Source: Halichondria panicea (lineage: Eukaryota; Porifera; Demospongiae; Suberitida; Halichondriidae). From it: a stretch of 64,000 bases of DNA. The notes under the pieces are model-generated. The model did no database searches. It was given only the letters and a program-made list of their open reading frames with translations, and had not been told where the DNA came from. The stretch is taken from the NCBI RefSeq assembly GCF_963675165.1, contig NC_087377.1:7643122-7707121 (forward strand). The letters run 5' to 3'. This document shows, piece after piece, positions 26,980 through 60,233 of this stretch. Both the position numbers and the translations under genes were made by a program. Position 1 is the first letter of the stretch; every line of letters starts with the position of its first letter.

Positions 26980-29900
26980 ATGGACAAGGGTTTGACATCT
27001 TTCACTTTTCTTTTTATGGCAGGGTCATTCATCATAGCTGTAAAAGGTAAGGCTATTGTGTTACATTGGCAGTACACATTAATTTCAGAATACTGCTGCA
27101 TACAAACTGAACAATGTTGCCACAAGAATACTATTCTACATGTAGATCGTATACAGAGTTGAATTGCACGTGAAGCATGCTAATTGTATGCTCCTTGCGA
27201 GTCAGATCACTCTTTCATTTGCATCCGCTATAAATAACTAGTATAATATGCAGCCGGAGATTGTATAGTCCAGCACGTGATGCTCCTCTGCATGAGTACC
27301 ACCACTATTGGCACACTTTTGGGTCCATTTTCAGTTACTTGCTGCTAGGGTACCTCAGCTTACAGTTTTTGTCAGTGTGTGTGCGAGCCTATACTATTAT
27401 CTCCCCAGAATCTTAACCCTGCATATGGAATATAATATACACAATGTATGTAGATCTGCACATATAAATTGGTGTGCATTGTACTTTTAAATTACCAATA
27501 AACTGCTGAAATACAATTTCATGACTGGTTGCTAATTTAGACAGTGATGTCTGATTGACCCGACTAATAATAATGATTATACTCTTGATTAAGTACAGTA
27601 ACCCATAACGACGTCTTTCCAATATTTTCTCGCAGCTCAGTTCACAGTACAGCCATTGTCAGTGGAGAGAGCTGAGGGACTGGAGGCAGTGTTCAGTTGT
27701 CAGTATCAAGCGGAGGGATTGACTGTTACTTATGACTGGGCAATAAACAATTCCATAGTCGGAGTAGATACAGAAACTGTTAGAGCACGTCCACCTTCAT
27801 CTCCTGGTGGACCATCAAGACTGACAATCTTGGCCACTCCACAGCACAACAACTCTATTGTTCAGTGTGTGGCTACAATCAGAAATGGCTTTGATATTAT
27901 ACAGTCTGAAGTATCGACCACAGCAAATTTATTTGTTTATGGTGAGTTAGTAACTATCATTATGTAAGGTTTGTTAAGCATTTCACTGTAGCAACGGACA
28001 TCACTAACGTTCTGACTGCTCCAAACACCATCACTGTGATGTGGAATGCTCTACCCCTCACTGAGTACTGTGTGGACATCACCAAGACAACTCTGGACTC
28101 AACTGAAACAGTTGTTCTTGATTGTGTGTGTGGACTGGCTAATGAGTACATCTTAACGTACTCCAACCCCATCAGTGTGTGTGACAGATTCTCCTTCACC
28201 GTGACTCCTACTGAAGGAGAGATGAGGGGAACAACCAGTGAACCAGTTACTGGGTTCTTTACAAAGATAGAAGGTGTGTTGTATTGTTATATCCACACTT
28301 GTTATTCTTCTATTCACAATGTACATGTATACTGCAGGTAGTAGAGAACGACGTCGTATTCGTGAAAATGGAGGGAATAAGTTAGTTGAGTTTGAGGCCA
28401 CTGTGAGTCATTGTATAGTGTAAGAGATGCACATGTAACAATTAAGCTAACCTTCTCCAGATACCAAGTTGCACAAGGTTCACTCGGTATCGTGTGAACT
28501 CTGACCTATTGACTCCCTCAATCAGTCGTTCAATCACGGACCCTCTTCTGTTTAATGGCTCACTCAGTTTCTCCCTCCCCACTGACAAGATGACAGAATA
28601 CAGTGTCACACTGACTGATGAGAATGGAATAGACCTCGTGTTTGAGAATATTTCAATCAGTGAGTTCAATGAGGCGTGTTCTGATGTTTATTACGATTCC
28701 CTTCTTAGGTACATTTGACGTTCAAGACCTGCTAGTGTCTGAATGTCCTGGTGGTGGTGGTATTTGTGTGAGCATTGTGTATGTTGAAGGTACTGTCTCT
28801 CCCGGAGCTCTCGTCTGTGCAGTTGGTATCATTAATGGAGTGCTTGATTTTGCTAACGTGAAACTGGTCACCATCCCTCGGAATTCTATCGAGAATTTCA
28901 TCATTCCTGTTCGTAGCGGAGAATACAAAGTGATTGCTTTTGATCTGGAGAATACCAAGTTACCAAGAATGCCCATCTCCATGGTAGCACTGAGTCTGGA
29001 CGTTATAGTGAATTCTGGTGCTAAAGGTATGTGCTCTGTGTGTAAATATGATTTTCTAGTGGCTATAGAATCTTCTTTGTAGGAACCAGTCCACCACCCA
29101 GTAGTGAAGTCGTTAGTGCAACCAACTTATCAAATGGAGATCTTGAGGTGACTTTCTCTGACTCTGCTCGGAATTGTCTAGTTCTGTTTAAACCCATTTT
29201 GGACAGAGTACTACGTGTAGTTGATTTTATCAACACATCTGAAAGCTCTACTGTCGTTGTTTTTCGGAAGGACACCTTTGGTGATGGCTATGTGGTGGTG
29301 TATTCTTGGAATAGTTCACAGTCCATCTTTGAAGGAGAAGTATCGCTCATTATACAACTGGATCCACCCACCTGTAAGTGCCTCTGTGGATCAGAGCTAA
29401 CATCATTCATTGATTTTTCTTTTTTCTATTGCAGCTGCTCCCACTACACCTCCAACGTCTGATCCACAAACAGACCCACCTCCTCCTCGTATGGAGTCCC
29501 TGCCAACATCAGTTATCGCTGGTAGGTTTCTAGTGCTGCAAAAGTGTATCATAATGATTCTCTCCATTCACTGTCACAGCAGCAGTTATAGCTGGTAAGT
29601 CAATGTACCTACAGAGCACTCACTAAGTCTGTTTGTGTTGAGTTTGACCTTCATAAAGTTGTCATAACTTATGAAGCCATGATTGACCACATAACTTCCG
29701 GGGTCGAACTCAACGCTTTTTATATGAGAATATAAGCATGGACACCTCTTAAAAAGGACAACCTCCGTATACAATGTTTTAAGGCAGCACTCAGTACAAT
29801 AACACATTATTCACCGCAATAGACTTTAGTTTGTAAAATAGCATATTATGACGCAGTTTGTGAATATCTACAGTTTACTTTGAATAGGATTCGTACACTC

Positions 29901-30005
29901 CAATAGTATGGATGCACATTTTTAGGTTTGGTGATTCTGCTATTGCTTGTGGTCACCGCTGTTGGAACTGTCGTTGTGATTTTAAGAAAACGGAGACAAA
30001 AATAA
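26980..30005 (+). CDS. receptor D: type I Ig/FN3 membrane receptor without tail
   Basis: Exons: 26980-27046 (signal peptide, MDKGLTSFTFLFMAGSFIIA), 27636-27941 (Ig; FSCQYQ, YDWAIN, VQCVAT), 27992-28273 (FN3-like), 28338-28402 (linker), 28461-28659 (second FN3 half), 28709-29026 and 29083-29373 (two unrecognised domains), 29435-29521 (Pro stalk), 29580-29594 (5-residue exon) and 29926-30005 (transmembrane). Every ectodomain exon is open and in phase, about 569 aa. After the helix and RKRRQK the frame meets TAA at 30003-30005, where a 4 nt insertion also changes the phase. The tail exon at 30056-30322 survives only as a remnant. In the second unrecognised domain the first Cys is Phe (VTFSDSARNC instead of VTCSDSA). 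A transposable element ends 65 bp before the start codon. A tail-less receptor or an early pseudogene. Confidence 0.75.
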
Positions 30006-30055
30006 TGAAGGTACCTAAATTATTCGTTAACTTGTCTTGAACAATTGACATGCAG

Positions 30056-30322
30056 TTGAGGTTCCAGAGTCAGATGGAAGAGTGGATTGGTCATCAACAT
30101 TTGCAGGAATTGAGCAGCCCAACGAAGCTTATGCTCCAGTACTGACGAGGAACATTGCCTATGAGCAGACAAAGAAACCACGGAGACAGAGGATCGATGA
30201 CTCACAAGCCCCGGCAACAACAGAGGGACAGTATGAAAGCATTGCAATAGCCAGTTCATGAGTACGAGGATGTGTTGCCTCAGGGAAAAGCAAGTCGTGC
30301 AAATTATGTTAACGTTAACTGA
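30056..30322 (+). pseudogene. stranded tyrosine-tail exon of D
   Basis: It still encodes VEVPESDGRVDWSSTF and the YAPV, YEQT and YESI sites. An insertion after YESI (AATAG region, about 30245) shifts the frame and stops before YEDV. It lies behind the TAA of the TM exon, so it is out of use unless that stop is bypassed. Confidence 0.8.
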
Positions 30323-30743: not shown

Positions 30744-31932
30744 TTCTTTGATAGGTAATTACACTAGTTTCCTCTGCATGAGTACAACTATTGGCACACC
30801 GTTACTGCCATGCTAGGGTACCGGCTTACAGTTTTAATTTGTCAGTATGTGTGTGAGCCTATACTGAATTATTATCTCCCCAGAATCTCGACCCCGGAAA
30901 ATGTGCCCATGTAAATCTGTACATAATAAATTGTGTGCTGTCAAATTACTGTACCTTTAAATTACCCTTACATTATATCTGAATGAACTGCTGAAACACA
31001 ATTTACATGTTGCTTAATTTATAGACATAGGGATATCTAGTAAAAAAGATAGGCTCGTACTCTTGATTAAGTACAGTAACCCATAACGACGACTGGTGCT
31101 AATATTTCTCACAGCTCAGTTCACAGTACAGCCAGTGTCAGTAGAGAGAACCGAGTGACTGGAGGCAGTATTCAGGTGTCTGTATCAAGGGGAGGGATTG
31201 ACTGTCACTTATGATTGGGCAATAAACAATTCCTTAGTCGGAGCAGATACTGAAACTGTTAGAGCTCGTCGACCTTCATCTCCTGGTGAACCAGCCACAC
31301 TGACAATCTTGGACACTTCACAGCACAACAACTCTGTTGTTCAGTGCCGTGCTACAATTAGTAATGGCTTTGATACTGTAAGGCCAGAAGACTAGTATCG
31401 ATCACAGAAACTCTAACTGTTCGTGGTGAGTCAATAATTATATTGATTGTCTTGGTATAATTAGTTTCTTTTAGAGACGGTCCTCACTCATCTTATTGTT
31501 GCACCGAATACCATTACCGTGATGTGGAATGCTCTACCTCTCACTGAGTACTGTGTGGAGATCAACACTGGTGTGGGAACTGTCGTTGTGATTTTAAGAA
31601 AACAGAGACAAAATGGAGGTACCTAAATCATTTGTCAACTTTTCATAAACAATTGGCATGCAGTTGAGGTTCCAGAGTCAGATGGAAGAGTGGATTGATC
31701 ATCAACATTTGCAGGAATTGAGCAGCCCAACGAAGCTTATGCTCCAGTACTCAAGCTCAAGAAGAACATTGCCTATGAGCAAACAAAGAAACCACAGGGA
31801 CAGAGGATCGATGGCTCACAAGTCCCGGTAACAACGGAGGGAGAGTATGCGATCATTGAGCCAGTTCATGTGTACGAGGATGTGTTGCCTGAGGGAAAAG
31901 CAAGTCGTGCAAATTATGTTAACATTAACTGA
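30744..31932 (+). pseudogene. locus D': recombinant, internally deleted type I receptor
   Basis: At 30744-30770 a stump of a type II signal exon (CTTTGATAGGTAATTACACT, start codon destroyed) runs straight into type I intron 1 sequence. The Ig exon 31115-31425 has TGA at 31156-31158 and a later frameshift (about 31390). Exon 31475-31618 begins as FN3-like (TVLTHLIVAPNTIT) and after EINT jumps into the end of the transmembrane exon (GTVVVILRKQRQNG): a deletion removed everything between, nearly 2 kb by comparison with F and D. The tail exon 31664-31932 has TGA in place of the Trp of VDWSS but is otherwise open. A clear pseudogene. Confidence 0.85.
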
Positions 31933-35100: not shown

Positions 35101-38100
35101 TGTACATCTAAAGGAGCCAGGGAGTGCCAATCATCTTCTCCCAGTCTCTGACACGCTAAAAAAAAAGGAGCTAGAACTGGGAGTCCCAGCTAGAATTGCT
35201 AGCCTGATCTAGAATGACATGGAGGCGTGGTGAGGCGGGATCCACACTAATCGACCTAAAGACGCTCCTGTTCCAGATTTCACGAATGGCAAGGAAAGGG
35301 ATAAGCGCCTGTTCTATTAGTGATTAGAAGAAACGATAGTTAGATGCATGTGCAAATTTACCTGAATGGACGATAAAACATACACAATTAATGTAGAAGA
35401 GTACTATTAATTTTTTGTTCCTATCAAATTAAGGTATATATAGTGATGTATATAATTATTATACATAATTATATTCAAATTGGCCTTCCTCTCTTCCTAT
35501 AGTACCATACATTTATCATGTACACAGCCCAGCAGTTTACAATTGAGCCCGAGTCAGTGGTACAAGCCGAGGGATTATTGGCAGAGTTTGAGTGCCTGTC
35601 TCCTGGAGCACTAACTCATCCTTGGTTTGTGAATGGCATTGAGTCTACAAGCCCTGACTTCTCATCTGAAATCAAAGTAGCTGGAGGCACTTCAGGTCTT
35701 CCCTCAGTGTTAACTATCCCAGCTAGCTTACAGTTCAACAGCAGTGTCGTTCAGTGTGCAGCCGTTTCAGTGACTGGTGGAGTCTTATCAAGGAATGCAA
35801 CGTTGAAAGTTGGTGAGTAGTGTAATTACTTGCAGAGTGTACATCTTGACACACAGTTGCTTTCAATGAGGTCTTTTTTCTCAGAGCGTGTATCTATTGA
35901 AGTGCTGAATGATGAAACCATTACCGTCTCTGTGACCAATAACTTCACAATAAATATCCTCTCCTATCATGTGGACATCTTTCTCACTACTCTGGGCTCT
36001 AATAAGATGGTTACACTCCCTCCTCTATATGGGATTCAAAATCAAACACAGTTTAATTACGGGCAACCTGATAACCACACTGTCTGTGATATATTCACCT
36101 TCACTGTGACTCCAATTAGCGAGTCAGGAATGGAAGGAAGATCCAGTGAACCAGTAATTTACTTCTTTACAGCAATTAGAGGTTCTGTGAATGTTTTATT
36201 GAACGTTTATGCTTGACAATTACCACAGATAATAACAATGTCACTTCCCTCATCAGTCAGGGAGGAAATGTGTTGACGAAAATAGTACATCTCAGTGGTA
36301 TGGTAAGAGACGTATTGACTGTAGTAAGATACATTTATTCAGTACACCTCTATAGGTACCCAACTGTACCAACTTCACCTCCTACCAAGTGACCTCTGAC
36401 ATATTGGCACCCATCAATAAGACCATCGAAGACCCCCACATGATAAGTTTCTCTCTTCCCACTGACCAGATAATCAACATCTCTGTGACACTTACTTCGA
36501 TCACGGGTGTACGTCTCATATTCAAGGACATGCTAATCAGTAAGTCGTGTTATTCAGTAGTAAGTATTACATGCTGATTTTAACACAGGAACAACTGATG
36601 TTCAAAATTTGATTGTAGACGTTTGCCCTAAAGAAAACTGTGCAAGTATTGAGTATGTTGAAGGTACCCTCTCTCCCGGAGCTCTTCTCTGTGTGATACG
36701 TATCATTGATGGAGAGTTGGATTTTCCAAGCACAAGACTAGTGCCAATTCGACGGAATATGAGTGACAATTTTACCATCCCGGTGACTGTTAGTGGAAAT
36801 TACAGTGTGGTTGCATTTGACCTTGAGAACAACAATTTGAGTGTACCAAGAATCCCCATTTCTATAGCGGCCAACGATGAAACTATATTTTTGCTCAATA
36901 GTAAGTCGGCTATTATATGTCAGTGTTGTACATATATTTTTTTGTGTGCTGTGCCATATCCTCCCAAAAAATTGTACTCGCAGATAATTGGCATTAAAAC
37001 CGCTTGCGAGTAATTGAAAAATTTAATTTCACAACTTGAGCAAGAATTTAATTTAATTAATTTTTAAGCTAAATAGTGAAATCGCAAACAAATCAGGCTA
37101 CCTGTGAAAATATGTCACCTTAAGGTAATTATAAGTAGACAAAAGCAACCTCTCACGAGCGGACCTTCTGGATTCCGGACAGCGGACAATCTTTGTGCAA
37201 AACTTCCTCTTATAACGGACAAACAGAAAATTACACATGTATATTTTATGTCCATATGGTATTATGTTATTGCTATAAATCGTACTGCCATACTGCAAAG
37301 CATGAAAGAATTATGCTTTATATCTTTGATTTTAGCAAGTTTCTTACTTATCGTACTTTTTGAACTAGAATTAGGGTCTAATTATAATTATACATGAATA
37401 CTATCTTGATATGGCAATTTGAATGAACCTTCAAAAAGAGACTAGGACAAACACTCTGCCTCCAAAGTGTCCTTTATTCGGAGGTTCCATATAGTGCTTT
37501 CGCAGGTTGACCTCAAACCTCAAAAATTCTGTCATTTGAATTTCTATCGTCATATAATTATAACAACGCAATTTGTGAACATAATTATTTTTGCTAGATA
37601 GTACTGTGTTAATAAAGTTGTTGGGTTCCCTTTTCCTCAGAATCTTCCACTGAACCAAATTTTCCACCTAATACTAAGGACATCACTGTCACTAAACTAT
37701 CGAATGGGAGTGCTGAAGTAACCTGCACTATCACTGGCCAGAGTTGTCTAGCATTGTTTCAATCTACAAACTCTCCAACCTCTCTTGATCCAATGGTGAT
37801 GATTGGTTTTATTGAACCACCTAATGACAGAACCACTGTCACTCTTGATGCCACTTCCGATATTCATGTGGTAGTGTACACTTGGAACAGTGATTCTAGT
37901 GAGACAATCTTTGATGGGAAGGTATCCTTCATCAGTAAGCCAAGAGTTAGTTTCAGTTTCAAAATTGTATGCGTTCTGTTCTTCCTCTTGCAGGTCCTCT
38001 CCCTACACGAGTACCTGACAGTACAGAGTTTGGATCTCTGCCCATACTAATAGCAGGTGAATGATGCAATTCACGGCTGTCTGTGTATATTTTTGTCTTT

Positions 38101-38447
38101 TAAAAGGTATCATCACTGTGGCTGTGGTACTGCTTCTCCTGGTAGTCATTGTAACTATAGTAGCCGTAGTTATTGTGAAGAGAAAACGAAGCCGTTTTAC
38201 AGAATCAAATGGGAGAGTAGATTGGTCATCAACATTTGCAGGAATTGAGCAGCCCAACGAAGCTTATGCTCCAGTACTTAAGAGGAACATTGCCTATGAG
38301 CAAACAAAGAAACCATGGGGACAGAGGATCGATGACTCACAAGCCCCGGCAACAACAGAGGGAGAGTATGCCAGCATTGAGCCAGTTCATGTGTACGAAG
38401 ATGTGTTGCCTCAGAGAAAAGCAAGTCGTATTAACATTAACTTATAG
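32139..38447 (+). CDS. receptor G: intact type II Ig/FN3 membrane receptor with short tyrosine tail
   Basis: Exons: 32139-32202 (signal peptide, MDDYTSLTFLLFVGTFTIAV), 35528-35812 (Ig; FECLSPG, HPWFVNG, VVQCAA), 35885-36181 (FN3-like), 36229-36302 (linker), 36356-36539 (second FN3 half), 36589-36900 and 37641-37934 (two unrecognised domains), 37994-38056 (stalk), 38107-38447 (transmembrane plus tail). All phases agree, giving 637 aa with no stop. The last exon is special: the TM and tail exons of the other copies are fused, reading IVKRKRSRFTESNGRVDWSS, so the final intron is gone. The tail has YAPV, YEQT, YASI and YEDV. The exon-3 donor is GTTCTG, weaker than GTACTG in C and E. Start only 207 bp after the D' tail. 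Intron 1 (3.3 kb) and intron 6 are enlarged by repeats. This is the best candidate for an active short-tail member. Confidence 0.8.
32402..32641. mobile_element. MITE in intron 1 of G, CCGTATAGCGGGAAATTTT family
   Basis: It starts TACTGTATAGCGGGAAATTT and ends GAAAATTTCCCCGCTATATA...ACGGTA. A CCACA/CACAC simple repeat follows at 32674-32725. Confidence 0.75.
33118..33886. mobile_element. 769 bp element with CAGAGATACAAAAGAAAGGG inverted ends
   Basis: The left end CAGAGATACAAAAGAAAGGG (33118) continues GATTGGAAACG and GTGAAGCATTCCGTG. The right end has the reverse complement of all of these, ending 33886. It lies in intron 1 of G. The minus-strand frames inside (33487-33185 and 33975-33682) match nothing I recognise. 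The GGGGATTGGAAACG core is shared with elements at 24728-25830 and 40127-40626. Confidence 0.75.
34553..34650 (+). repeat. A21 run followed by AGT/AGC trinucleotide repeat
   Basis: A run of 21 A (34553-34573) is followed at 34588-34650 by two rounds of GGAAGAGTAGCAGCAGTAGTA. Intron 1 of G. The A run could be the tail of an inserted retro-copy, but no body is recognised before it. The rest of the intron up to 35527 shows no gene. Confidence 0.65.
36901..37640 (+). other. enlarged intron 6 of G
   Basis: This intron is about 75 bp in C but 740 bp here. It contains a GCGGACCTTCTGGATTCCGG block at about 37160 and an inverted-looking GAGGTTCCATATAGTGC block at about 37481, which suggest a decayed TA-type element. 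No coding exon was seen. Confidence 0.5.
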
Positions 38448-42919: not shown

Positions 42920-45900
42920 TCATGAGATCAATACATTCCATACATTACCTAATTCATGAATGTAGCTGGAATGCAACACCTTGTTGCCTCGTTTGCCTTT
43001 CTTCACTCGATACAGAATAACAATAACGATGACAATTATCGCAATGACCAGAATCAGAGTAACAACAATGACTGCAGAGAGAGAGGTCACGACTATTAAT
43101 GCTAGCATGTAAAATAGGCAATGGAACGCAATCATATACCACACGTACTTGCTTACCTATTATTATTACTATGGGCGGTGGAGGTTGAGGTGAAGACAAT
43201 GATGGAGATTCCGTACTGTCAGGAGGTGATTGTGTACGGGGAGGACCTGCAACATTAAGAATAGAGCACATTATAATTCTGAAACGGAAACTAACTCTTG
43301 GCTTACTGGTTCGTAGCTCCAATTGATCAATGAAGGATACCTTCCCATCAAAGATGGTCTCACCAGAATCACTGTTCCAAGTGTACACTACCACATAAAC
43401 ATCAGAAGTGGCATCAAGAGAGACAACAGTTCTGTCATTAGGTGGTTCAATAAAACCAACCACCACCATCAAATCAAGAGAGGTTTTAGATTGAAACAAT
43501 GCTAGACAACTCTGGCCAGAGGTAGTGCAGGTTACTTCAGCACTTCCATTTGATAGTTTAGTGACAGTGATGCCCTCAGAATTAGGTGGAGAACTTGGTT
43601 CAGTGGAAGATTCTGAGGAAATGGGAACCCAACAACAAGTAAAATAGTTCGAGCTCGATCATACGGTCAAGGTGTGTGCACACGAGATCAACTTTCATGA
43701 GATCAACTCCCAAATTTCAGTGTAACGTACCCTATATTTAATATAACAAACACGTTCAGAGGAAATTTCAGGCCATTATACAAAGGCAGCCTTTGTGTTG
43801 AGGGATTGCTTTTGTACTAACGATCACTTTTTTCATTATTAAAATATCGTTGTTAGTTCTTGGCTGATGTGATTGAAAGTGAATGATCCAAGTTAATTTG
43901 TACTACATGTAAGTGCATGAAATAGTCCACTAGCTCGTCAATGTCAAGCCAGGCTATTAACAAATGTCAATGGACAAAATGCCACAGATACCATAAAAAT
44001 ATACGTCTCTTATTTTCGTGTAGATACACCCCTCGAAGTCTTTCCTATAGCTCTTCAACTGTTCCTGAATTCTTGATGATTGAGCCATTGAGAATGAGTG
44101 TGCATTGTGCTAAATCTATAGGGGTTTGTTACTCAATACCTGTCAACCTTTGGCATGGGCGCATAGCTAAGAAAGTGAGGCCAACACCTTTAAAAAGTTA
44201 ATTTCTGGATAACAAGATTAGAGTTGATTTGAGTTGATTTCAGGAGTTGAGTTGATCTTATGAAAAGTTGATTCTGTGAGAGTTGATCTATTGACAGTCG
44301 ACCTCATGCAAAGTTGCTCTGGTAGGAATTATCTCTTTGGAGTTGATCTCATGAAAGCTGATCTCGTGTGAGGCAATCTATAAAACGCACACCACAAACG
44401 AATGTACATGTACATGTACAAGACTGAGAGCCGACTCACCATTGCTCAAAACCGTAGTTTCATCGTCGGCCACTATAGAAATGGGCATTCTTGGTACACT
44501 CATATTGTTGTTCTCAAGGTCAAATGCAACCACACTGTACTTTCCACTAACAGCCACCGGGATGGTAAAATTGTCACTCATGTGCCGTCGAATTGGCACT
44601 AGCCTTGTGCTTTGAAAATCCAACTCTCCATCAATGATACGTATCACACAGAGAAGAGCTCCGGGAGAGAGGGTACTTTCAACATATTCAATACTCGCAC
44701 AGTTTTCTTGAGGGCAAACGTGCACAATCAAGTTTTGAACATCAGTTGTTCCTGTGGAAATCATTGTAAATCAAATCAGCATTGTAAAGCCCCGTTTACA
44801 CAAGGCCTTTAATCTTGGTTGGAATCCAGATTAAACCTATCCGCGTTTGTGTAAACAGGCTCCGGATTAGCCAACCTACCTCTAAAGCAGAGGAGGTACC
44901 ACACTTTCTTGGCTTCATGTATTGCTCAAGGTCTCTATGGCTAGCTACGTATATTGTTTCTCCAGCTGAGGTCCTCGTCAATATATTTATGAAGGGTGCA
45001 GCTAGTGCTCTCACCTCTTGTAGCAAGCATATCTCGTAACTGAATAGGGGTTCACTGGTGTTCAGCAAAGGAAACAGTTTGATCTAGGTCTAATCTATAT
45101 ACTACCCTTGACTTTGAAAAGCCTCAGTCACAGAATAATGAAAGCACCGCGGGTGCTGATGCCTTGGTGGAGGTGCCAAAGCTACATAACATAAAACTAC
45201 TAATAGCTAGCTTTTATACACACATTGTTATTGCTGCATGCCAAATATAAATCTAGTGGGTAATGATCAACCATGATTGTTGTTAAAAACGATCGATGCC
45301 AAAAGTTCAAGTCTAAAATTAATGGCTGCAAGTCAGCAGAGCCTTGCAGCTCTCTGCTCACTCTTGCAGCTACCAATAGCTAGCGTTCTAGTACAGAGCT
45401 AACTACTAAGTTGAGTAGTAACACTCGGTGAGCAAGTTTTGCTACGGACTCTTCTGAAAAGGCTGCAATGGCATTCCAAGTAAGCAAAACTAGGCATAAC
45501 TCGAGAACGAAGCATTATTTTGCAAATCCACGAATTAAAATCCAAGTAAACATGACTAGAAGCCTATAGAAACTCTTACTTGCACTTGATTCATCCTTGA
45601 GCAGCTGTAGCAGTCTACATAGACACACACACAAACACACTACCGTATACCTCGCTTGCGCATGCGCACCGAGGCATAATTAACGAGTTATTATGAAGAA
45701 CACACTAAAACTAAGATTGGAATACAATTAAAAGAGATATCACGAGATGTTGTCGTACCGCTTAGCTGTGAGTAAACACAAAGGGCTAATTCTGAGGTGT
45801 TGTTTATGTTTTTGCGCAAATGCAAGTAGTGGTCGTTTTACTATTTTACTATGCCCACTATACTCAGACAAATCAGACCCGGATTTGACCCAGATTAGGC

Positions 45901-47131
45901 GTCGTGTAAACAGGGCTTTATACTACTACCAGGAGTGCTACTGAATAACATGACTTACTGATTAGCATGTCCTTGAATATGAGGCGCACACCCGTGATCG
46001 AAGTAAGCGTCACAGAGATGTTGATTATCTGGTCAGTGGGAAGAGAGAAATTTATCATTTGGGGGTCTTCAATGGTCTTATTGATGGGTACCAATATGTC
46101 AGTGGTAACTTGGTAAGAGGTGAAGTTGGTACAGTTTGGTACCTGAGAGGTGAGCTGAATAAGTGTGTCTTACAGTCAATACGTTTCTTACCATACCACC
46201 GAGATGTACTATTTTCTTCAACACATTACCTCCCTGACTGATGAGAGGAATGACATTACTATCTGTGGTTTTTTTGTCAAGCATAATTATATAAACACAT
46301 TAAAGATAATATTCACAGTACCTGTTACTTGTGTAAAGAACCCAGTGACTGGTTCACTCTGATTTCCTTCCATTCCTGACTCAGAAGTAATCGGAGTCAC
46401 AGTGAAGGTGAATGTATCACAGACAGTGTGGTTCTTAAGTTGTTGATAATTAAACTGCACTTGATTTTGAATCCCATTTAGAGGAGGAAGTGCAACCATC
46501 TCATTGGTGACCAGAGGCACCAGGGAGATGTCCACACGATAGGCGAGGTTATTCATAGTGAAATTATTCATTACGGAGACAGTAATTTTGGTTTCACCAT
46601 TCAACACCACAAGAATTACACGCTCTGAGAAAATAAGCACAGCAACTCAAGGTATACTTTCTACAATACACCACTCACCAACTGTCAATATTGCAATCCT
46701 TGAGAACAACACTGCACCACTCAGTGAAAATGCTGCACACTGAATGACACTGTTGTTGAACTGTGAGCTAGCTGGGATGGTCAGCACTGAGGGACGACCT
46801 GAAGTACCTCCAGCTACTTTGATTTCAGATGAAAAGTCAGGGCTTACAGACGGTGTGCCGTCCACGAACCAAGGATAACCTGATGCTCCAGGAGACAGGC
46901 ACTCAAACTTTGCCAATAATCCCTCGGCTTGTATCACTGACTCGGGCTCAATTGTAAACTTTTGGGCTGTATTATTATGACGTACATGGCGGCGGTTTGT
47001 CATTGCATGTAAAATATTTATAGTGACACATGTATATGTATCATACCTTCAATAACTGTGATTGTAAGAAATAGCCCAACTACAATGCACAAGGCAGTTG
47101 TCTGACTTGCTATAGCTGCCACCAACTCCAT
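42920..47131 (-). CDS. receptor E: type II Ig/FN3 membrane receptor with truncated long-type tail
   Basis: Exons on the minus strand: 47131-47047 (signal peptide, ALCIVVGLFLTITVIE), 46966-46679 (Ig; FECLSPG, YPWFVDG, VIQCAA), 46624-46322 (FN3-like), 46262-46192 (linker), 46142-45959 (second FN3 half), 44751-44440 and 43612-43307 (two unrecognised domains), 43246-43157 (Pro/Ser stalk) and 43101-42920 (long transmembrane helix, YRVKKGKRGNKVLHSS). All phases agree; about 606 aa. The helix and juxtamembrane resemble F, not C or G. F splices at CATTCCAG/GTACAA, but here that donor reads CTACAT, so the frame continues through YIHELGNVWNVLIS and stops at 42920. Intron 5 holds a 1.1 kb element. The gene faces F head to head. 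Confidence 0.8.
44220..44372. repeat. degenerate GAGTTGATCTCATGAAA tandem repeat
   Basis: Eight or so diverged copies of a roughly 20 bp unit (AGTTGATTT, AGTTGATCTTATGAAA, AGTTGATCTCATGAAAG) in intron 6 of E. An inverted pair of the unit lies at 43687-43712 (CGAGATCAACTTTCATGAGA). Confidence 0.7.
44785..45920. mobile_element. 1.1 kb element in intron 5 of E
   Basis: Left TAAAGCCCCGTTTACACAAG and right TCGTGTAAACAGGGCTTTA form the ends, with inner blocks AATCCAGATTAAACC and GGATTTGACCCAGATTAGG. It carries a nested copy of the 187 bp repeat (45137-45321). The corresponding intron of G is only 49 bp. No coding sequence is recognised. Confidence 0.7.
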
Positions 47132-51673: not shown

Positions 51674-54600
51674 ATGGAGGCCCTACAAGTGTTGACTGTC
51701 ATTATCATAGTGCTCACATATCTGATTGTTTCTGGAGAAGGTTTGCAAATACATTTACATAAGGCCATCATTTCCCGCTTGGTAAAAGTGTAAAAGTATG
51801 CCTCTTTGTCTGTCATTATTCAGAGGAGGTACGACACGAGTACCTCGATTAGGCTTGGTCACATGAACAATTACCATATCTACATGTACAAATCATGTAT
51901 GATAACGCTTTCAATCTAAACAGAAGTTATGGCACACAAAGTTAGCCTAGCTTTCAATCCATTCAACAGTGAAGTCTTGTTGCATACATGTGACATTAAC
52001 TCAATTTTAGCCTAATTGAGGTACTCGTGTCGGGCCTCCTCTGGTCATTATTGCTGTAAAGCATTGACACACCCCTTAATTTCTTAATCATAGTTTCTTA
52101 GTCATAATTATGTACGTGCTCTTTTTTGGTTAAGAATTTCAATAACTTAATATTCATTGTTCCCCCCCCCCCCTCATGTCCTTTCCATTTTAATGAGCTA
52201 ATGAATAATGACCAAAGGAATGTACTTTGTCTGGCTTATTAAACATGGGGTTGTTACGGTAAACAGTTTGCTCATGAATATGTTTGAAGTACATACATGA
52301 TAAATATATCATTCTGTATGAGAAGTACAGTGTATCAATCTTCAAAACATCTTTCAGTGGAAGCTCTGAGCGATCATCAAGTTACTAGAAACAACACAAA
52401 CTAGTAGTCATTTTTAACTTCCAAAAACACTTCTAGCTCTGTGTTCTTACTCTTATACGATGCTTTTTACCATTTTGGAGGGCAGCTCGAAGTGTTTTTT
52501 TCTTTCCAAGCCAAGAAACTCTCACAAAAATTAATATGTAGACTAAAATGGTGGTCACAGCCAAGGAAAACATGAGCTTTCAGCAAAATATCTCTTCGAG
52601 CCGCCCTGCATATAGTGAAGCTACAGTAGAACATCTAGTAAAAGTGTCTATTGGAGCAACTACTGCGTTTCAGCTGGACTTTCAGCTCATTCTAGCTGCT
52701 CACGATCACTAGATCTAGCTCAGACATGAATAATTAATGAGCAAACAGTTTACCGTAGCAGGTACTTGAAGTTATAAAGTATTTGTTGCGTGCAGTAATA
52801 ATTATGTGCACACTGGTCACTATTTATGTAGTATTGCAATGATCAACTGTTTGTGTGTTTGTTCTTATTTCTCACAGCTCAGTTCATAGTACAGCCAGTG
52901 TCAGTGGAGAGAGCCGAGGGACTGGAGGCAGTGTTCAGTTGTCAGTATCAAGCTGAGGGATTGACTGTTACTTATGATTGGGCAATAAACAATACCATAC
53001 TCGGAGCAGATACAGCCACTGTTAGAGTACGTCGACCTTCATCTCTTGGTGGACCATCAAGACTGACAATCTTGACCACTCCACAGCACAACAACTCTAT
53101 TGTGTATTGTGAGGCTATAATCAGAAATGGCTCTGATCGTACATTTGTGATTTCATCCACAGCATCTCTAGTTGTTCGTGGTGAGTCAGTAATTATATCT
53201 TGATTGTCTTGGCATAATTTGTCCTTCTTTTATTACAATAGAGACGGTCCTCACTCCGTTTATTGTTGTACCGAATGCCATCACCATGATGTGGAATGCT
53301 CTACCTCTCACTGAGTACTGTGTGGACATCAACACGACAACTCTGGACTTCACTGAAATAGTGGCCCTTGATTCTCTGTGTGGATTCACTAATGAGTACA
53401 TCTTCATGTACTCTGATAACAGTGTGTGTGCCAGATTCACTGTGACTCCTACTGATGGAGAGATGAGGGGAACAACCAGTGAATTATGTACCGGGTTATT
53501 TACGAGAACAGAAGGTGTGTTTATGATATTAATAGTATTACACTTCTATAATATTATTATGCAGGTAGTGGAGAACAACATCGTATTCTTGAAACTAAAA
53601 GGAATAAATTAGTCAAATTTAGGGCAACTGTGAGTGATTCAATTTTAGGGTTAGTGTTAGGGTTAGGGTTAGCTGTTTGTTACGTTGGTAAGAATGCATT
53701 TTTAGTTTGTTGAGTTCTCTCTAACATTTTAGGTTCCAAGTTGTAGAAACTTCACTCGGTATCGTGTGGACTCTGACCTATTGACTCCCTCCATCGATCG
53801 TTCAATCACGACCTCTCTTCTGTTTGATGGCTCACTCAGTTTCTCCCTCCCCACTGACAAGTTGACAGAATACAGTGTCACACTGACTGATGAGAATGAA
53901 ATAGATCTCGTGTTTGAGAACATTTCAATCAGTAAGTCCATCACGTTTATTTTGAGCTGATAAAAATAGTGTCCGTGATAAATATCTCTATCAGGTACTT
54001 TTGACGTTCAAGACGTCCTAGTGTCTGAATGTCCTGGTGGTGGTGGTATTTGTGTGAGCATTGAGTATGTTGAAGGTACTGTCTCTCCCGGAGCTCTCGT
54101 CTGTGTGATACGTGTCGTTAATGAAGTGCTTGGAGAGCTTGACTTTGCTAACATGAAACTGGTTACCATCCCTCGGAATTCAAGTGAAAATTTCACCATT
54201 CCTGTTCCTAGTGGAGAATACCGAGTGATTGCTTTTGATCTGGAGAACAACCATTTACCAAACATGCCCGTCTCTATGGTAGCACTCAGTCAAGACAATA
54301 TGACAGTGAACTCGACTGGTGAAGGTAAGTGCTCCATGTGTTTTTGCTCTGCATTATAGAGACTATAATAAGAATTGTCATTTACTTCACCGTAGACATT
54401 ACCAGTCCACCACCCAGTGAGGGAATTAGTGTATCCAATTTAACGAATGGAGATGTTAGTGTGACCTGTTCTGACTCTGCCCTGAATTGTCTAGTCTTGT
54501 TCCAATCCACCATCTTGGACAGAGTGATTGTCGGTTTCATTAACTCTTCTGAAGTCTCAACTATCCTCTCTTTAAATGACACCTTTGGCTATGTGGTGGT

Positions 54601-54926
54601 GTATTCTTGGAATAGTTCACTGTCCATCTTTGAAGGGAAGGTATCGCTCATTATGCAACTGGATCTACCCACCAGTAAGTGCCTCTGTAGATTATCAGAC
54701 ACTTGGTGATCACTTATTCCGCTTCCTCCTCATTCCTATTGCAGCTGCTCCCACTACACCTCCAACGTCTGATCCACAAACAGGCCCACCTCCTCCTCCT
54801 GATATGGAGTCCCTGCCAACATCAGTTATCGTTGGTAGGTTAAAATGTGTTAGTGCTTTAATATTATCTTTATCCCTTATACCGCCTATATCTTTACCAT
54901 GATATACAGTAGATAATTCAGCTCTT

Positions 54927-54960
<34 letters not shown>

Positions 54961-57900
54961 ATTCAGGCATTATTGTTCCCTTGGTTTTGATAATGATACT
55001 AATGATGGTGATCATTATTATTGTTCTGGGGAAGAAAGTCAAACGAGGCGGCAAGGTGTTTCATTCCAGGTACAATCATTACCAGCAGTATGTGAGAATT
55101 AATGTGGTTGTCATGTGCTGCATCATCTAATTTAAAAGTGTTCAAACCATTTGCTAGCATTCATGCTAATTATGATCTACAAGCAATCTAATTAGAGACA
55201 TTACTGAGTGGGTGCATGGTCACATTAGCGTGATTGAAACTGAAGTAATTAGGGCTGTTTTACAACAATATCTGTTTAACAAGAATCGTGTGTTTACATT
55301 CGTAACTTATAATAATTCTCTTGATTTACAGTAACTCTGAAGGCGGCAGTGTGGTGAGTATTACACTTTATGTTGCAATGATAAACTCTCTGCACGTGTT
55401 TGTGCTGATAATGCACTAATGTGTTTTGATAGCCCCCACACGTAAGAATACTTTCCCAGTTCATAGTGTAGCTTCCTTGTTTAGGAAACGTTTTTATGTT
55501 CACTCATGAGCTAATGCTATATGGTTTCGTATTAGCAACGTCCTGTGTTCATGTTTCAATATCCCCCTCAGTGACAACTATATTTGCCAACATGTAGATA
55601 CTGATTTGTATTAATTTACCGCGTGTGATTTATAGGTACATGTATAGAATCAAGGAGTGTCTACTCTTGATAGATTATGATGTGTGTTTCAAGCCAAAGC
55701 CCTTTCACATGTTGTTGTTTCCACTATCAGGTCCCTGAGGGCCTTGCTTGAATGAGTATGTTTAATGTGTATTGTCTACAGGATGTGGGTGCCTCAATAA
55801 CATCTAAAGTAGCATTTTACGATGTCGCCCGCCCTGAGCACATGTCTCTGGAACGCAACACGGCTGACACTGACGATACACCTCCACCAGGTTATGATGT
55901 CGTGCGTAAAGAGAATTTGCCAAGTCCTGAATATGAAACTGTACCATCGGCTAAGGCAGGCAAGCCTACACCCACCACCAGTGAGAACCCTCCACCCCTT
56001 CCCCCTACCATGCTACGAGGAGACAGTGATGCACCTGATCTACCACCTGCCTACAATCCTGCCGTGGATAACAAGAGTGTTGTTGTTATGTCAGTGGAGA
56101 ACTCTATCAGCCACGGTGTGGAAAATCAGTCAGTAGATGAGGAGGTTGATGAGTCATTGAAGATAGATCTATCAGTCAGCGACACAGAATATGATGGTAC
56201 TACAGAAGAGGCCATTGGTAGTACTGAAGTTCAACCAGATGTTGACCGTGTAGACACAGTTCAATGTGCAGAGAGTGGAGCTGGTAACAATGTTGACCAT
56301 GGTGGACAAGAGGCAATGATCGCTGCGCAGGTGAGGGTACAAGTAAATGTTTTCTGTGACGCTTTCTCCTTTGTCTCTTTTACATGATTGTGGTTTTTTG
56401 TAGCGCGTTTGTATACGTGTATACACACTACAATAATTCAGTACAATCAGTGTTTCATGCAAACATTTGCTAAATGAAATCGTGCGTGACAATATGTGCA
56501 TGCATGGTTACAGCCCATTGAGCAGGATACAGCTGCATGTGTATTATAATACCCTTGTTGAGTTGTTGGCCATGTGTGTTTATGTGTGTTGTGTGTCTTC
56601 ACACAGCATCTGGTGATCCCTAAGTGTGTAAGGAAAAGCACCTGTGGTACATTATTGTACATTATTATAGTGTGTCCAAATAAGCTCATTGGCAGACAAA
56701 TGGACACAAAGCGCTCATTGTTACTTAATGCCAAATATAGTTCTGTCCCGGCCTACCGTACACTGTAGCTCCGTTGCTTCATGCACGTACAATGCTACTT
56801 ACATTGTACTGATTATTACCATTTTTGTGAAGTGCCAGTGGTCTCCTCTGTAAGCACCACAGCATTTTCTAAACCTTCATCTCCTTGTATCATGGGAGGG
56901 GGAAGGAGTAGAGGGTTCTCACTAACGGTGAATGTAGGTTCGCCTGCCTTAGCTAATGGTATAGTTCCAGGGAAGGAAGCTCTACATGTCGGAAGCCTCC
57001 GTGCTTGAATACAATGACATCTTTTATAGTAATAGTAATAATATTAGTGGGAAAGTACATATTACTTGTCTCAGTCTGTGTCCCAATGTCCTCAGGACTG
57101 CGTAATTATAGTAGACAGGAAGTATTTTTACAGTAATTATTAGCACCCCACCCACTCCCACGCAGCACCAGTACACGCTGGTGGTTCCCAAGCCAGCCAG
57201 CAGTGATGCCAAGGTGAAGGACTTATGTACCGTCATTTATTCTGTGGTAGACAAGGAAAAACTCAAACCAGTCATCCCAACACCAGGTACTAGTGCATGT
57301 GTATACAATGAATGCCTTAATTGTGGGACGGTATATATATATACATGCAGTGGAGTCATAACCTGTTCAATTAATAGTGTTTCAGGCAGACATTATTTTT
57401 GGCAAAGGTATCAAGTAGTATACATGTATACTGTAGATACACACTATTATTATTATGGGAGAATAAATTTTGGGGATAGTGCTTACTAGTACTTGACATA
57501 TACGTGTCAGCTAATTCCCTAAGTGGAGACGGTTGACAGTTTCATGTGTGTACATGTAGTGTAAACTCCAAAACTTTGCTGGTAGTTTTCAAAACTAGTT
57601 GGACTACTTTCATCATGAGAGGCCAGATATGTCAATAACTTGTACATGTGTTATGCCTTGTCTTGTAGTTGCCAAAGCACAAGGGCAGTACATTCCGGTA
57701 GAGACCAGGCCAGCCAGCAGTGATACCGAGGTGATGGACTCGACCAAGGTCGTCTATGTCGTGGTGGACAAGGACAAACTGAAACCACTAGATCCGAACG
57801 ACCCACCAGGTAGGTCACTCTTATCCACTCTGAATATACCCTCTGACCTAATTTCTACCTACCTACTTATTCTTTGAAAGTGTTTGTTGTTTTTTAGAGC

Positions 57901-60233
57901 GTCTTTATCACAATGCTCATTCCCTTAATCCCACTTGCCGACTAAACGGAAAATGAATCTCAAAGCCAATCAAGTTTATTGCCTCTCATGCAACAATTAC
58001 TTGAAATTGTTGTTTTGGGTGTTTATAATGTTATTATATCAATATTCCCTACCGCATTCAAGTGTCATCCTTTCAGGGGTGAGAATTTACCTCCACATAT
58101 ACATGTATATAAATTAGGTTTTCTATGCAATATTAGAGGAAATGTTTCTCTTATTCCGTACTTGATTGGCTGTTTACTGTTATAATTGTATTTGTGCATG
58201 TTTTCTTAGAGGACATTTTTCCCTTATTTGGTGCTTTATAGATTCACTGTTGTTCAATTGTAGTATGACCGGTAGTTGTAGTCAATGAAACAACTTTCAT
58301 TGTCTCCCCTCTCCAGCTCTTCCACCACGACGCCCTGTCACTAATACTGAGCTGCACACAGAGAAGACACTAGGTGGGTGGTTAGTATACTTATAGCGGG
58401 TAATTTTCGTGTGGAAAAATATTCGTGGTTGAAGGTCTGCATGACCACGAATATTTTACCCACAAATGAAGCATTTTACCCCTTGAAAATTACCCGCTAC
58501 ATGTATATGGTACTTACACGAAGTAGTTTTTAGAGTGGACACCCCATAAATTATTGTCTTGTTTTCTAATTATGTATTGTACAATGTAAGTCACTTTAAA
58601 CTGTGGGAAATTAAATGTTGGCACTGTCGTTCGTCAAGTGGTAGTTAATACAATGTCATGATTGGTTCCACATTACACTAATTCCCAAGAGTTCATGCAA
58701 TGCAGGTGTATCATGATTGTGTGTACAAGTGTAATATTGACTTGTGACTCTAAGAAACACATGTATACAGATAGCAGATTTCTGAATAACTGGCTATACA
58801 TAATAAATCTGTATAGTGCCAAAATACATGGGCTTGTTTCCATCAATATGCCAATAATTATGTCCATTGGAATTCATTCTCCCTCCAGCCCTTCCACCAC
58901 GACAACGCCCCCCACCACCACCGCCCACCCACGAGACGCTCATGGATCTGTTACACCCCGTTGTTAAAAAGTGGGAGGATATCGCCAAAGCACTGAACAT
59001 TGACGAGGACAGAGTGGATGAAATCTTCACTAATAATGAGAATGAATATCTCCGGCTATACGAACTAATGGAGTATTATTTTACAAACGTCCATTGCAGT
59101 CACTCTTGGGAGGAGATGGTGCGAGTGCTGACAGAGATAGGGGAGCATGGTTTGGCTGAGAGAATAAAAGCAGATAAAATACAAGGTGTGTGTGTTTGGT
59201 ACTCGTTAGAATGAGTGGCATTGCATTCTTGTCAATGATTGCTCATAACTTGCCCCATTTACACCCAGCACCAATGTATTTAAGGGGTGAATCCCTTTAA
59301 CCTTCAGTGTAAATTCTCCCAAGTGATACGAATTGTAGCTTGCGTGCAGTTGTAAGAGTTCTGTTTTCGTTGTGTGGTAAACACGTGTCTATACTACCCC
59401 ACAATGCAAGCATTCCAGTTTACACAAAAACAACGTACAGCTTACACAAGAACCAAGAACACCGTACAGCTAAAATAATAATCAAGTGTATATCATACAG
59501 CTTACACAAGAACAACGCACAGCTAAAATAATGTGCATTGATATACATGTAGCCTGAGAACGAGTGTTGTACATGTATGAAGTATACATGCAGGCACAGG
59601 CCCCGAGGGCAAGCTGCCTGTATTAATAGCACAAGGATTCGCATGCTATATATACATGGGACTGTGTGACTTTTTTTACACACTTGTTGATGTATGGTTA
59701 TTTGATGATACGATGCACTGCAATATCGCATGTGGTCTCGTGTAATAATTATTGGTGATGTAATGTCCGAGGGCTAATTATTGTACTCGTGCCAATAACT
59801 AATACTAGCAGTGTGTCAAGAAGAGCTCCACCATTGAATTGAGCCATTGCATTCGTATTTGTATTCTGTATTCTACCTATACTACCATATTGTGCGAGGT
59901 ACTTAACTTTCATGGAATTATCTACAAAACATACATTTCGCTCTATACGTTATGTCAATGCACGTTGCATGCGTCAGTGTTTGTGGAGGACCCTTGAAAA
60001 CAACACGCTATATGGTATACGTGTATAAATTATACTACTTGAAGTCAATTACTATCAAGAGTTCATTAGGAATCCTAATGACCTAATGAACTCTTAATAC
60101 TATGTCTCTACAATATGTGTGCTAAATTTGCCATTGCGTGACTGTATGGAGTGTACAGATTTATAATACATTGTTTGCTGTATTCATGCATGCAGGTGGT
60201 GAGGTGCTCCACCCGGTGTCTTCAGTAGTATAA
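51674..60233 (+). CDS. receptor F: Ig/FN3 transmembrane receptor with tyrosine/proline-rich tail and death domain
   Basis: Exons: 51674-51740 (signal peptide MEALQVLTVIIIVLTYLIVS), 52878-53180 (Ig, type I), 53242-53514 (FN3-like), 53565-53629, 53733-53931 (second FN3 unit), 53995-54324 and 54396-54674 (unrecognised), 54745-54834 (stalk), 54967-55069 (transmembrane, then KKVKRGGKV), 55332-55353, 55433-55441 (tentative 9 nt exon), 55782-56330 (YDVA, YDVV, YETV, PPLPPT, PPAY), 57166-57286 and 57669-57809 (duplicated tyrosine exons with IYSVV and VYVVV), 58317-58373, 58889-59185 (death domain) and 60196-60233 (GGEVLHPVSSVV, stop). All phases agree; about 980 aa. The death domain implies a cytosolic adaptor or caspase-like partner. 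The terminal exon is supported by its inverted copy at 39425-39379. The small exons and 3' end are less sure than the ectodomain. Confidence 0.8.
51821..52043. mobile_element. MITE in intron 1 of F
   Basis: Left CAGAGGAGGTACGACACGAG and right CTCGTGTCGGGCCTCCTCTG are inverted, followed inward by TACCTCGATTAGGCT and AGCCTAATTGAGGTA. The same end sequence flanks the element near 1182 and 1930. Confidence 0.8.
53645..53672 (+). repeat. interstitial TTAGGG repeat
   Basis: TTAGGG TTAGTG TTAGGG TTAGGG TTAG in intron 4 of F. This is the animal telomere unit in a short internal tract. Confidence 0.85.
54930..54957 (+). repeat. (CT)n tract before the transmembrane exon of F
   Basis: About 14 CT units end 9 nt before the acceptor of exon 54967-55069 and so form its polypyrimidine tract. 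Confidence 0.85.
55782..56330 (+). other. large cytoplasmic exon of F
   Basis: 183 codons, phase 0 at both ends, directly after the small juxtamembrane exons. It has three spaced tyrosine sites (FYDVARP, GYDVVRK, EYETVPS), proline-rich segments (ENPPPLPPT, an SH3-type ligand), a PPAY motif (a WW-type ligand) and an acidic C-terminal half. The pattern is that of a docking platform; no folded domain is recognised. Confidence 0.7.
56881..56970 (-). repeat. inverted copy of part of the large cytoplasmic exon of F
   Basis: The sequence GGGGGAAGGAGTAGAGGGTT to GCCTGCCTTAGCTAATGGTA is a diverged reverse complement of exon positions 55933-56024 (GCTAAGGCAGGCAAGCC... to CCCCCTACCATG). Because it sits in the next intron, the pre-mRNA can fold back on its own exon. 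Confidence 0.8.
58387..58507. mobile_element. short foldback in intron 15 of F
   Basis: Left TATAGCGGGTAATTTTCGTG and right GAAAATTACCCGCTACATGT, with inner inverted TATTCGTGGT / ACCACGAATATT. A relative of the CCGTATAGCGGG family. Confidence 0.75.
58889..59185 (+). other. death domain exon of F
   Basis: After a proline run (ALPPRQRPPPPPP) comes a six-helix-type death domain: TLMDLLHPVVKKWEDIAKAL, DEDRVDEIF, YLRLYELMEYYF, HSWEEMVRVLTEIG, EHGLAERIK. The conserved features are the helix-2 Trp followed by LA-like IA (WEDIA), the helix-3 acidic turn, the W in helix 4/5 (SWEEMV) and the final GLAERI. About 80 residues, the usual length. Intron phase 1 at both ends. Confidence 0.85.
60057..60095. 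repeat. small palindrome in the 3' region of F
   Basis: Arms AAGAGTTCATTAGG (60057-60070) and CCTAATGAACTCTT (60082-60095). It is absent from the inverted copy at about 39620, so it is an insertion on the F side. Confidence 0.75.

Follow-up and report, generated by a model that had tools for sequence, protein, structure and literature searches.

The stretch of DNA analysed here (the window, 64,000 nucleotides) corresponds to C1:7643122-7707121 in the 131 Mb assembly of the demosponge Halichondria panicea (Suberitida). Its plus strand carries, at positions 51674-60233, a gene designated gene F, whose 16 exons are spliced in the predicted model to a protein of 977 aa without internal stop. All 15 introns have GT-AG borders and the exon phases are consistent throughout, in agreement with the original prediction of one open frame with phase-consistent splicing. 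From N- to C-terminus the encoded protein consists of a signal peptide, an Ig domain, an FN3-like domain, the product of a linker exon and of three beta-rich exons, a T/P-rich stalk, a transmembrane (TM) helix, a basic juxtamembrane segment, a Y/P-rich tail, a death domain and the terminus SSVV (Table 1). Hydropathy peaks coincide with the signal peptide and with a single TM helix at about residues 534-557. The ALPPRRP sequence of exon 14 is presumably an SH3-ligand-like motif. The C-terminal SVV is common to gene F and its relatives P0001 and P0023 (P0017 and P0027 end otherwise), and we take it to fit a class I PDZ ligand. In the intron 3' of exon 11, a minus-strand fragment (56879-56965) resembles residues 630-658 of the gene F tail and is perhaps a relic of an inverted duplication.

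Table 1. Exons of gene F and copies of the same family in the window (positions are those of the window)
Feature	Position	Strand	Basis
Copy A, short tyrosine tail	3915..6383	+	family match in window
Copy B, short tyrosine tail	10917..13391	+	family match in window
Copy C, short tyrosine tail	14755..17620	+	family match in window
Copy D, short tail broken after YESI	27635..30258	+	family match in window
Copy D', truncated ectodomain and short tail	31093..31929	+	family match in window
Copy E, short tyrosine tail	35509..38444	+	family match in window
Minus-strand family copy; juxtamembrane gene-F-like, tail traced no further	42923..46961	-	family match in window
Gene F, exon 1: start codon and signal peptide	51674..51740	+	hydropathy, splice phase
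Exon 2: Ig domain, V-like; relatively most diversified of the exons compared	52878..53180	+	Ig_3 14 bits, sub-threshold; fold from a family member's model
Exon 3: FN3-like domain	53242..53514	+	BLASTP of paralog P0001 vs P0025
Exon 4: 22-residue linker exon, required for frame	53565..53629	+	splice model; also in P0001
Exon 5: beta-rich ectodomain unit	53733..53931	+	splice model, structure prediction
Exon 6: beta-rich ectodomain unit	53995..54324	+	splice model, structure prediction, Foldseek
Exon 7: beta-rich ectodomain unit	54396..54674	+	splice model, structure prediction
Exon 8: T/P-rich stalk	54745..54834	+	splice model
Exon 9: TM helix and basic juxtamembrane	54967..55069	+	splice model
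Exon 10: short juxtamembrane exon	55332..55353	+	splice model; match in P0001
Exon 11: cytoplasmic tail with YDVA, YDVV, YETV, PPAY, proline-rich runs	55782..56330	+	splice model, motif scan
Exon 12: tail exon with VIYSVV (ITIM-type consensus)	57166..57286	+	splice model, motif scan
Exon 13: tail exon with VVYVVV (ITIM-type consensus)	57669..57809	+	splice model, motif scan
Exon 14: ALPPRRP	58317..58373	+	splice model
Exon 15: ALPPRQRP and death domain	58889..59185	+	Pfam Death, genome search, profile
Exon 16: C-terminus SSVV and stop	60196..60233	+	splice model; SVV end also in P0001, P0023

A profile search of 58889-59185 against death-fold families, proposed as a check of the original prediction, placed the Pfam family Death above its cut-off of 22.6 bits (31.5 bits for the exon 15-16 piece, 26.0 bits for the whole protein). 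A six-frame search of the genome with the same family recovered the gene F death exon at 31.4 bits (E 2.2e-5). The H. panicea genome is rich in death domains, since at least 148 Death matches at E up to 1e-3 were obtained from 150 of 503 candidates scored. At least 31 of the death-domain matches listed lie at C12:1.04-2.08 Mb, consistent with another expanded death-domain family. Searched alone against PDB by phmmer, the gene F death domain gave a best E of 0.57, and a profile of nine death domains matched ankyrin-2 (7e-4), THO complex subunit 1 (0.0011), FADD (0.0023) and RIPK1 (0.0072). These nearest solved relatives are all weak, and do not name a partner.

Assignments in the ectodomain are less direct. 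The Ig match is sub-threshold (Ig_3, 14.0 bits, Pfam cut-off 30), and the domain has the Ig fold, disulphide cysteines and core Trp of the Ig superfamily. No Pfam FN3 family was called on gene F itself; in the relative P0025 the whole-protein fn3 score is 26.0 (cut-off 25), with no single stretch passing alone. The 'two unrecognised domains' of the first description are coded by exons 5-7 and predicted to be beta-rich; they are probably further FN3/Ig-like units. The 22-residue exon 4 is an addition to that description. Structure prediction of the ectodomain, also suggested at the outset, succeeded in part: the AF2 model of the relative P0019 is of moderate quality (mean pLDDT 52.7), with low global TM-scores and only the first Ig domain well placed. 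The list of Foldseek matches was headed by Ig-FN3 chains of LAR-type phosphatases, contactins and cytokine receptors. For the full paralog P0001, the AF2 model was too poor for use (mean pLDDT 34.7), and the lack of death-fold entries in its best 50 Foldseek matches is uninformative at that quality.

Pfam searches of gene F at E up to 5 found no TNFR cysteine-rich repeats, LRR, TIR, TSP1, ZU5 or phosphatase families. Membership of the TNF receptor superfamily (TNFR repeats), of the UNC5 receptors (TSP1 repeats and ZU5 domain) and of the sponge Ig-TIR receptors (TIR) was rejected on these grounds. Kinship with receptor tyrosine kinases was set aside on a weak argument: the kinase matches listed (129 of 1749 candidates scored) all lie outside C1 6.9-7.75 Mb.

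The same architecture recurs in NCBI-predicted H. panicea proteins, among which the main-family members are located on C1. An Ig-FN3-type ectodomain is joined to a death domain in four of these relatives (P0001, P0017, P0023 and P0027), two of which score below the Death cut-off. A single-pass TM helix and an intracellular death domain occur in one product in the gene F model and in P0001, P0017 and P0023, all of them predictions. The closest is P0001 (LOC135338850 isoform X2, 993 aa), with 81% identity over 100% of the gene F length, TM helix and death domain included, a similarity between predicted proteins that exceeds chance. Its death-domain exon is letter-for-letter equal to the exon at C1:7305263, and its Death score of 21.6 is just under the cut-off. 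P0017 (LOC135338765, 1264 aa) scores 25.4 bits, its death-domain exon being that at C1:6966045; 3' of this domain it has eight near-identical repeat copies, each starting NNCDESTQASV. Among the protein-search matches (roughly 8000 candidates sharing most words scored per search), there was neither an NCBI model of gene F itself nor a relative from outside H. panicea, so that absence elsewhere does not follow.

More distant members keep the combination as well. A copy on C8, spliced independently of the annotation, shows the gene F arrangement of parts. It is 37-39% identical to four C1 proteins, and 98% identical over 100% to P0023 (LOC135340097; Death 23.0 bits, above the cut-off). The domain order that had been read from gene F, including one TM helix and a C-terminal death domain, is thus borne out by Pfam, by the NCBI relatives and by this C8 copy. 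P0027 (LOC135342390) shares with P0023 43% identity in the Ig-FN3 part and 28% in the segment from the VVYA motif up to and including the death domain (E 8e-11), with a Death score of 18.3, under the cut-off; its close relative P0028 had no Death match at E up to 0.1. The persistence of both the Ig-FN3 and the death-domain end at such divergence speaks for use of the combination. In P0002 (LOC135338914) the long tail is otherwise colinear, but terminates in HETSLITV, and no death domain was found in the forward-strand frames of the 6 kb read at its locus (L042). P0024 (LOC135340080), also on C8, is related to the C8 gene and has an additional Ig domain (37.6 bits); its tail contains YEGL-x8-YEVV, with ITAM-like spacing but V as the last residue. 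The short-tailed P0015 (LOC135339333 isoform X2, NCBI-predicted) lacks a TM helix separating the stalk from the tail (its best late 21-residue hydropathy is 1.1), suggesting that TM-less splice forms may exist in the family.

Gene F is not solitary. The gene F ectodomain (exon 4 to TM) has 157 matches in the genome, and the 143 listed matches at C1 6.91-7.70 Mb were grouped into an array, leaving out 7 on C8 or C2 and 7 unlisted. They represent about 57 loci in a region of 0.79 Mb, with 30 loci on the plus and 27 on the minus strand, by a grouping rule that may split or join genes; fragments and loci with stops are among them. For the short tail, as found in window copies A-E, the genome has 74 matches (all 78 candidates scored): 52 at C1:6.91-7.75 Mb (48 loci), 19 at C1:3.44-3.70 Mb, 2 on C2 and 1 at 8.72 Mb. 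A short tail lies within 3.5 kb after 41 of the 57 ectodomain loci; as two of these loci share one, this makes 40 tails. With the same limit, four of the remaining loci have a gene-F-like long tail, two a long tail plus death domain, and ten neither. The full death-domain form is clearly intact in three array genes including gene F, P0017 having been missed by the 3.5 kb limit; other copies of the death exon are located at C1:7612689 (open, shortened), 7554705 (partial) and 7747856 (with stops). The first reading did not include that gene F is one of about 57 ectodomain loci, mostly with a short tyrosine tail, that seven other copies lie in the window, and that the death domain is a minority tail. 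The observation on gene F itself is confirmed; its interpretation was right in kind, albeit too narrow, and is partly supported.

Some copies in the window deviate from this form. At 30240-30260 copy D leaves the conserved short-tail frame after YESI, where the near-identical P0010 continues into EPVHEYEDV; this break reflects either a broken copy or an assembly error. Copy D' passes from the start of the FN3-like exon directly into the TM/juxtamembrane region, and most of its ectodomain is gone. Elsewhere in the array, loci L034 (C1:7349234-7352581) and L035 (C1:7484629-7487976) are 96.2% identical over 2979 bases, suggesting that duplications were recent or that haplotypes were set in tandem by the assembly. 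The second array at C1:3.44-3.70 Mb contains 19 short-tail matches with 46-72% identity, and the genes read there (L041 at C1:3577001-3583000, P0025 and P0026) encode (Ig-FN3)x2-TM receptors. The same short tail is thereby found on a different Ig-FN3 ectodomain.

The tails are characterized by several conserved tyrosine sites. In 14 short-tail proteins (12 from the main and 2 from the second array), YA[PST]V was found in 13 (lost in P0026), YEQ[TI] in 13 (lost in P0015) and YE[DE]V in all 14. YESI or YASI is present in 12 of 14 and missing from both second-array proteins, which weakens the YESI/YEDV pair as the defining short-tail motif. Strict ITAMs (YxxL/I-x6-12-YxxL/I) occur in 0 of 23 tails and were rejected; in the short tail, YESI-x5-YEDV (YxxI-x5-YxxV) is ITAM-like, but departs from the motif in both spacing and last residue. 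Long tails have YDVx and YETV sites plus at least one VxYxx[VLI] site (ITIM consensus) in all eight proteins examined. The two ITIM-type sites ([SIVL]xYxx[IVL]) of gene F are reached in 18% of shuffles (0.18), no better than chance; values for P0001, P0002, P0017 and P0018 are equally unremarkable (0.10-0.43), and those for P0023, P0027 and P0028 are 0.008, 0.024 and 0.0025. SH2 domains were identified at 71 places in the genome (all 89 candidates scored).

Divergence between copies is unevenly distributed over the protein. The comparison comprised the window copies and 20 fetched loci, after removal of copies with coverage <80% or stops and of near-identical pairs (dS up to 0.02). Among 17 gene-F-like copies (136 pairs), mean dN divided by mean dS is 0.82 for the Ig exon, and dN exceeds dS in 29% of these pairs; the corresponding ratios are 0.54, 0.56, 0.47 and 0.34 for exons 3, 5, 6 and 7 (18-19 copies), and 0.34 for the short tail (14 copies). 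Correspondingly, pN/pS is 0.83 for the Ig exon (bootstrap 0.71-1.00; 16 copies resampled), 0.59 (0.49-0.68) for exon 3, 0.64 (0.47-0.88) for exon 5, 0.60 (0.51-0.71) for exon 6 and 0.43 (0.40-0.46) for exon 7. The Ig value stays below 1, and its interval overlaps with the one for exon 5 and touches the one for exon 6, so that relaxed constraint could still account for it and positive selection is not proven. Four or more residues occur at 20 of the Ig sites, and 18 of these sites are concentrated at positions 52-66 and 97-113 (32 of 101 codons). These correspond to strands C to C'' and F-G in the P0019 model, partly alternating beside the core residues Trp57 and Cys100. The C and F-G strands form the usual binding face of the Ig superfamily. 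In exon 7, gene F has 92.8% identity to the short-tail copies at 6994459 and 7467322, versus 83.3, 85.2 and 85.6% to the three long-tail copies in the comparison. Exon 6, by contrast, is similar to both classes: its nearest long-tail copy (95.7%) leads a short-tail copy (95.1%) too slightly for exon 6 to serve as a mark of kinship with the long-tail copies. An exchange of ectodomain exons between the tail classes would produce such a mosaic.

We propose that gene F encodes a single-pass surface recognition receptor in a tandem-expanded Ig-superfamily cluster with alternative tails, a few of which end in a death domain; we assign this reading a probability of roughly 0.6. The cluster is best read as a diversifying family of recognition receptors with exchangeable tails and a putative immune or allorecognition function. 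The N-terminal V-like Ig domain, most variable between copies on its C/F-strand face, would bind ligand, and the FN3-like units would serve as a stalk. On this common ectodomain are placed alternative tails: mostly short ones with YA[PST]V, YEQT, YESI and YEDV-type sites, and in a minority a long one with YDVx/YETV and VxYxx[VLI] sites and putative proline-rich ligands, followed in a few members by the death domain. Ligand binding could lead to clustering, to phosphorylation of tail tyrosines by Src-type kinases and to docking of SH2/SH3 adaptors. The death-domain members may then associate with the death domain of a partner (FADD-, RIPK- or Pelle-like), giving a death or NF-kB type output. 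The link from recognition to death or NF-kB type signalling that had originally been envisaged for gene F is plausible.

What such receptors would recognize can be read in several ways. It is quite possible that the array constitutes an innate receptor repertoire against microbes or symbionts, diversified by an arms race and unrelated to allorecognition. In the available parts of the published reports, H. panicea individuals differ in the immune receptor sets that they express (PMC8242945), and Ig and death-domain genes of other sponges react to microbial signals (PMC6208332). The expansion and recent duplication of the array would fit as well, but sequence does not separate this reading from allorecognition.

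More tentatively, the array could be a self/non-self (allorecognition) complex, in which long- and short-tail members act in opposition and death-domain members execute rejection by cell death. As far as the accessible text of these sources goes, linked Ig receptors with tyrosine tails occur in the Hydractinia Alr and Botryllus fuhc complexes (PMC12065747, PMC11999971), and one sponge allograft paper concerns a death-domain protein; the alternative tails on a common ectodomain and the divergence on the Ig binding face point in the same direction. Against it stand the lack of a canonical ITAM in the tails scanned, the weak ITIM statistics of gene F and, in the same partial sense, the sponge aggregation factor as the published candidate and an Amphimedon graft study with no significant enrichment of apoptosis or adhesion genes (PMC5450542). 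Bolder still, and in our opinion rather doubtful, is the proposal that the 6.9-7.75 Mb array and its sister at 3.44-3.70 Mb form a sponge histocompatibility complex, in which tyrosine tails oppose each other and a subset is wired to the death domain, so that mismatched contact could kill cells in the contact zone. If true, self/non-self recognition by Ig receptors with tyrosine tails would extend beyond cnidarians and chordates to sponges.

It is unlikely that the family represents UNC5/LAR-type adhesion or guidance receptors expanded for tissue patterning instead of immunity. The Foldseek ranking of Ig-FN3 chains and the UNC5 precedent for an Ig ectodomain with a C-terminal death domain would agree with such a role, but gene F has no TSP1, ZU5 or phosphatase family at the Pfam threshold given above, and dozens of copies with diverging Ig domains fit conserved patterning poorly. 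Finally, a decaying or optional death-domain exon, with most products ending earlier as in LOC135338914, is improbable, for despite that protein's terminus, the frames at its locus and the partial or broken death-exon copies of the array, the domain is intact in gene F, P0001, P0017 and P0023 and recognisable in P0027.

The array is of interest in that the receptors of sponge self/non-self recognition are unsettled, and it offers a mapped locus with named genes in a common species, a testable candidate. Wiring Ig recognition directly to a death domain would provide a short route from contact to cell death. Among the papers listed from the open-licence PMC literature, none describes the array in its title or at the start of its abstract.

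Among known systems, the accessible parts of the literature describe in Hydractinia clustered Ig-superfamily TM receptors, the Alr family of 41 genes, with ITAM/ITIM motifs on candidate genes, and in the fuhc locus of Botryllus a fester family and an Ig family with ITIM and hemITAM motifs (PMC11999971, PMC12065747). Hydractinia and H. panicea both have a clustered family of Ig-superfamily TM receptors, but these belong to different phyla, and FN3-like units and a common short tail occur in the sponge array. Alr receptors have, to our knowledge, no death domain. With fuhc the likeness lies, in what is accessible of those sources, in linked receptor families with tyrosine-based signalling; no death domain is mentioned there, and the sponge array lacks a canonical ITAM and has an uncertain ITIM case. 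A review states, in its available part, that the proteins proposed for allorecognition show no conservation between sponges, cnidarians and ascidians, the cnidarian and ascidian systems converging on ITIM/ITAM-type tails.

In sponges themselves, Ig-TIR receptors combine Ig with an intracellular TIR domain; the accessible text of the reports gives one for Aplysina aerophoba and two or six for Dysidea avara (PMC6208332, PMC12909245). A death-domain protein, DD2, has been described from Geodia, according to the part of that source available (PMC5793068). The Ig-TIR receptors resemble the array genes as TM receptors in which Ig is coupled to an immune adaptor domain inside the cell, but have TIR instead of a death domain and number only a handful. 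The rise of DD2 during sponge allograft rejection is reportedly the subject of one paper.

Vertebrate paired Ig receptors (KIR, LILR, SIRP, PIR) have a common ectodomain with alternative tails, and are clustered and fast-evolving. The sponge array resembles them in these properties, but differs by the absence of a canonical ITAM, a weak ITIM case and a death-domain tail, and homology is not claimed. UNC5 netrin receptors have extracellular Ig, one TM helix and a C-terminal death domain; gene F differs in having neither TSP1 nor ZU5, and the sponge family is largely expanded. We know of no other clustered receptor family in which Ig recognition is joined directly to a death domain. The new element is the family as predicted here, an array of Ig receptors that is expanded in a sponge and whose alternative tails include one with a terminal death domain.
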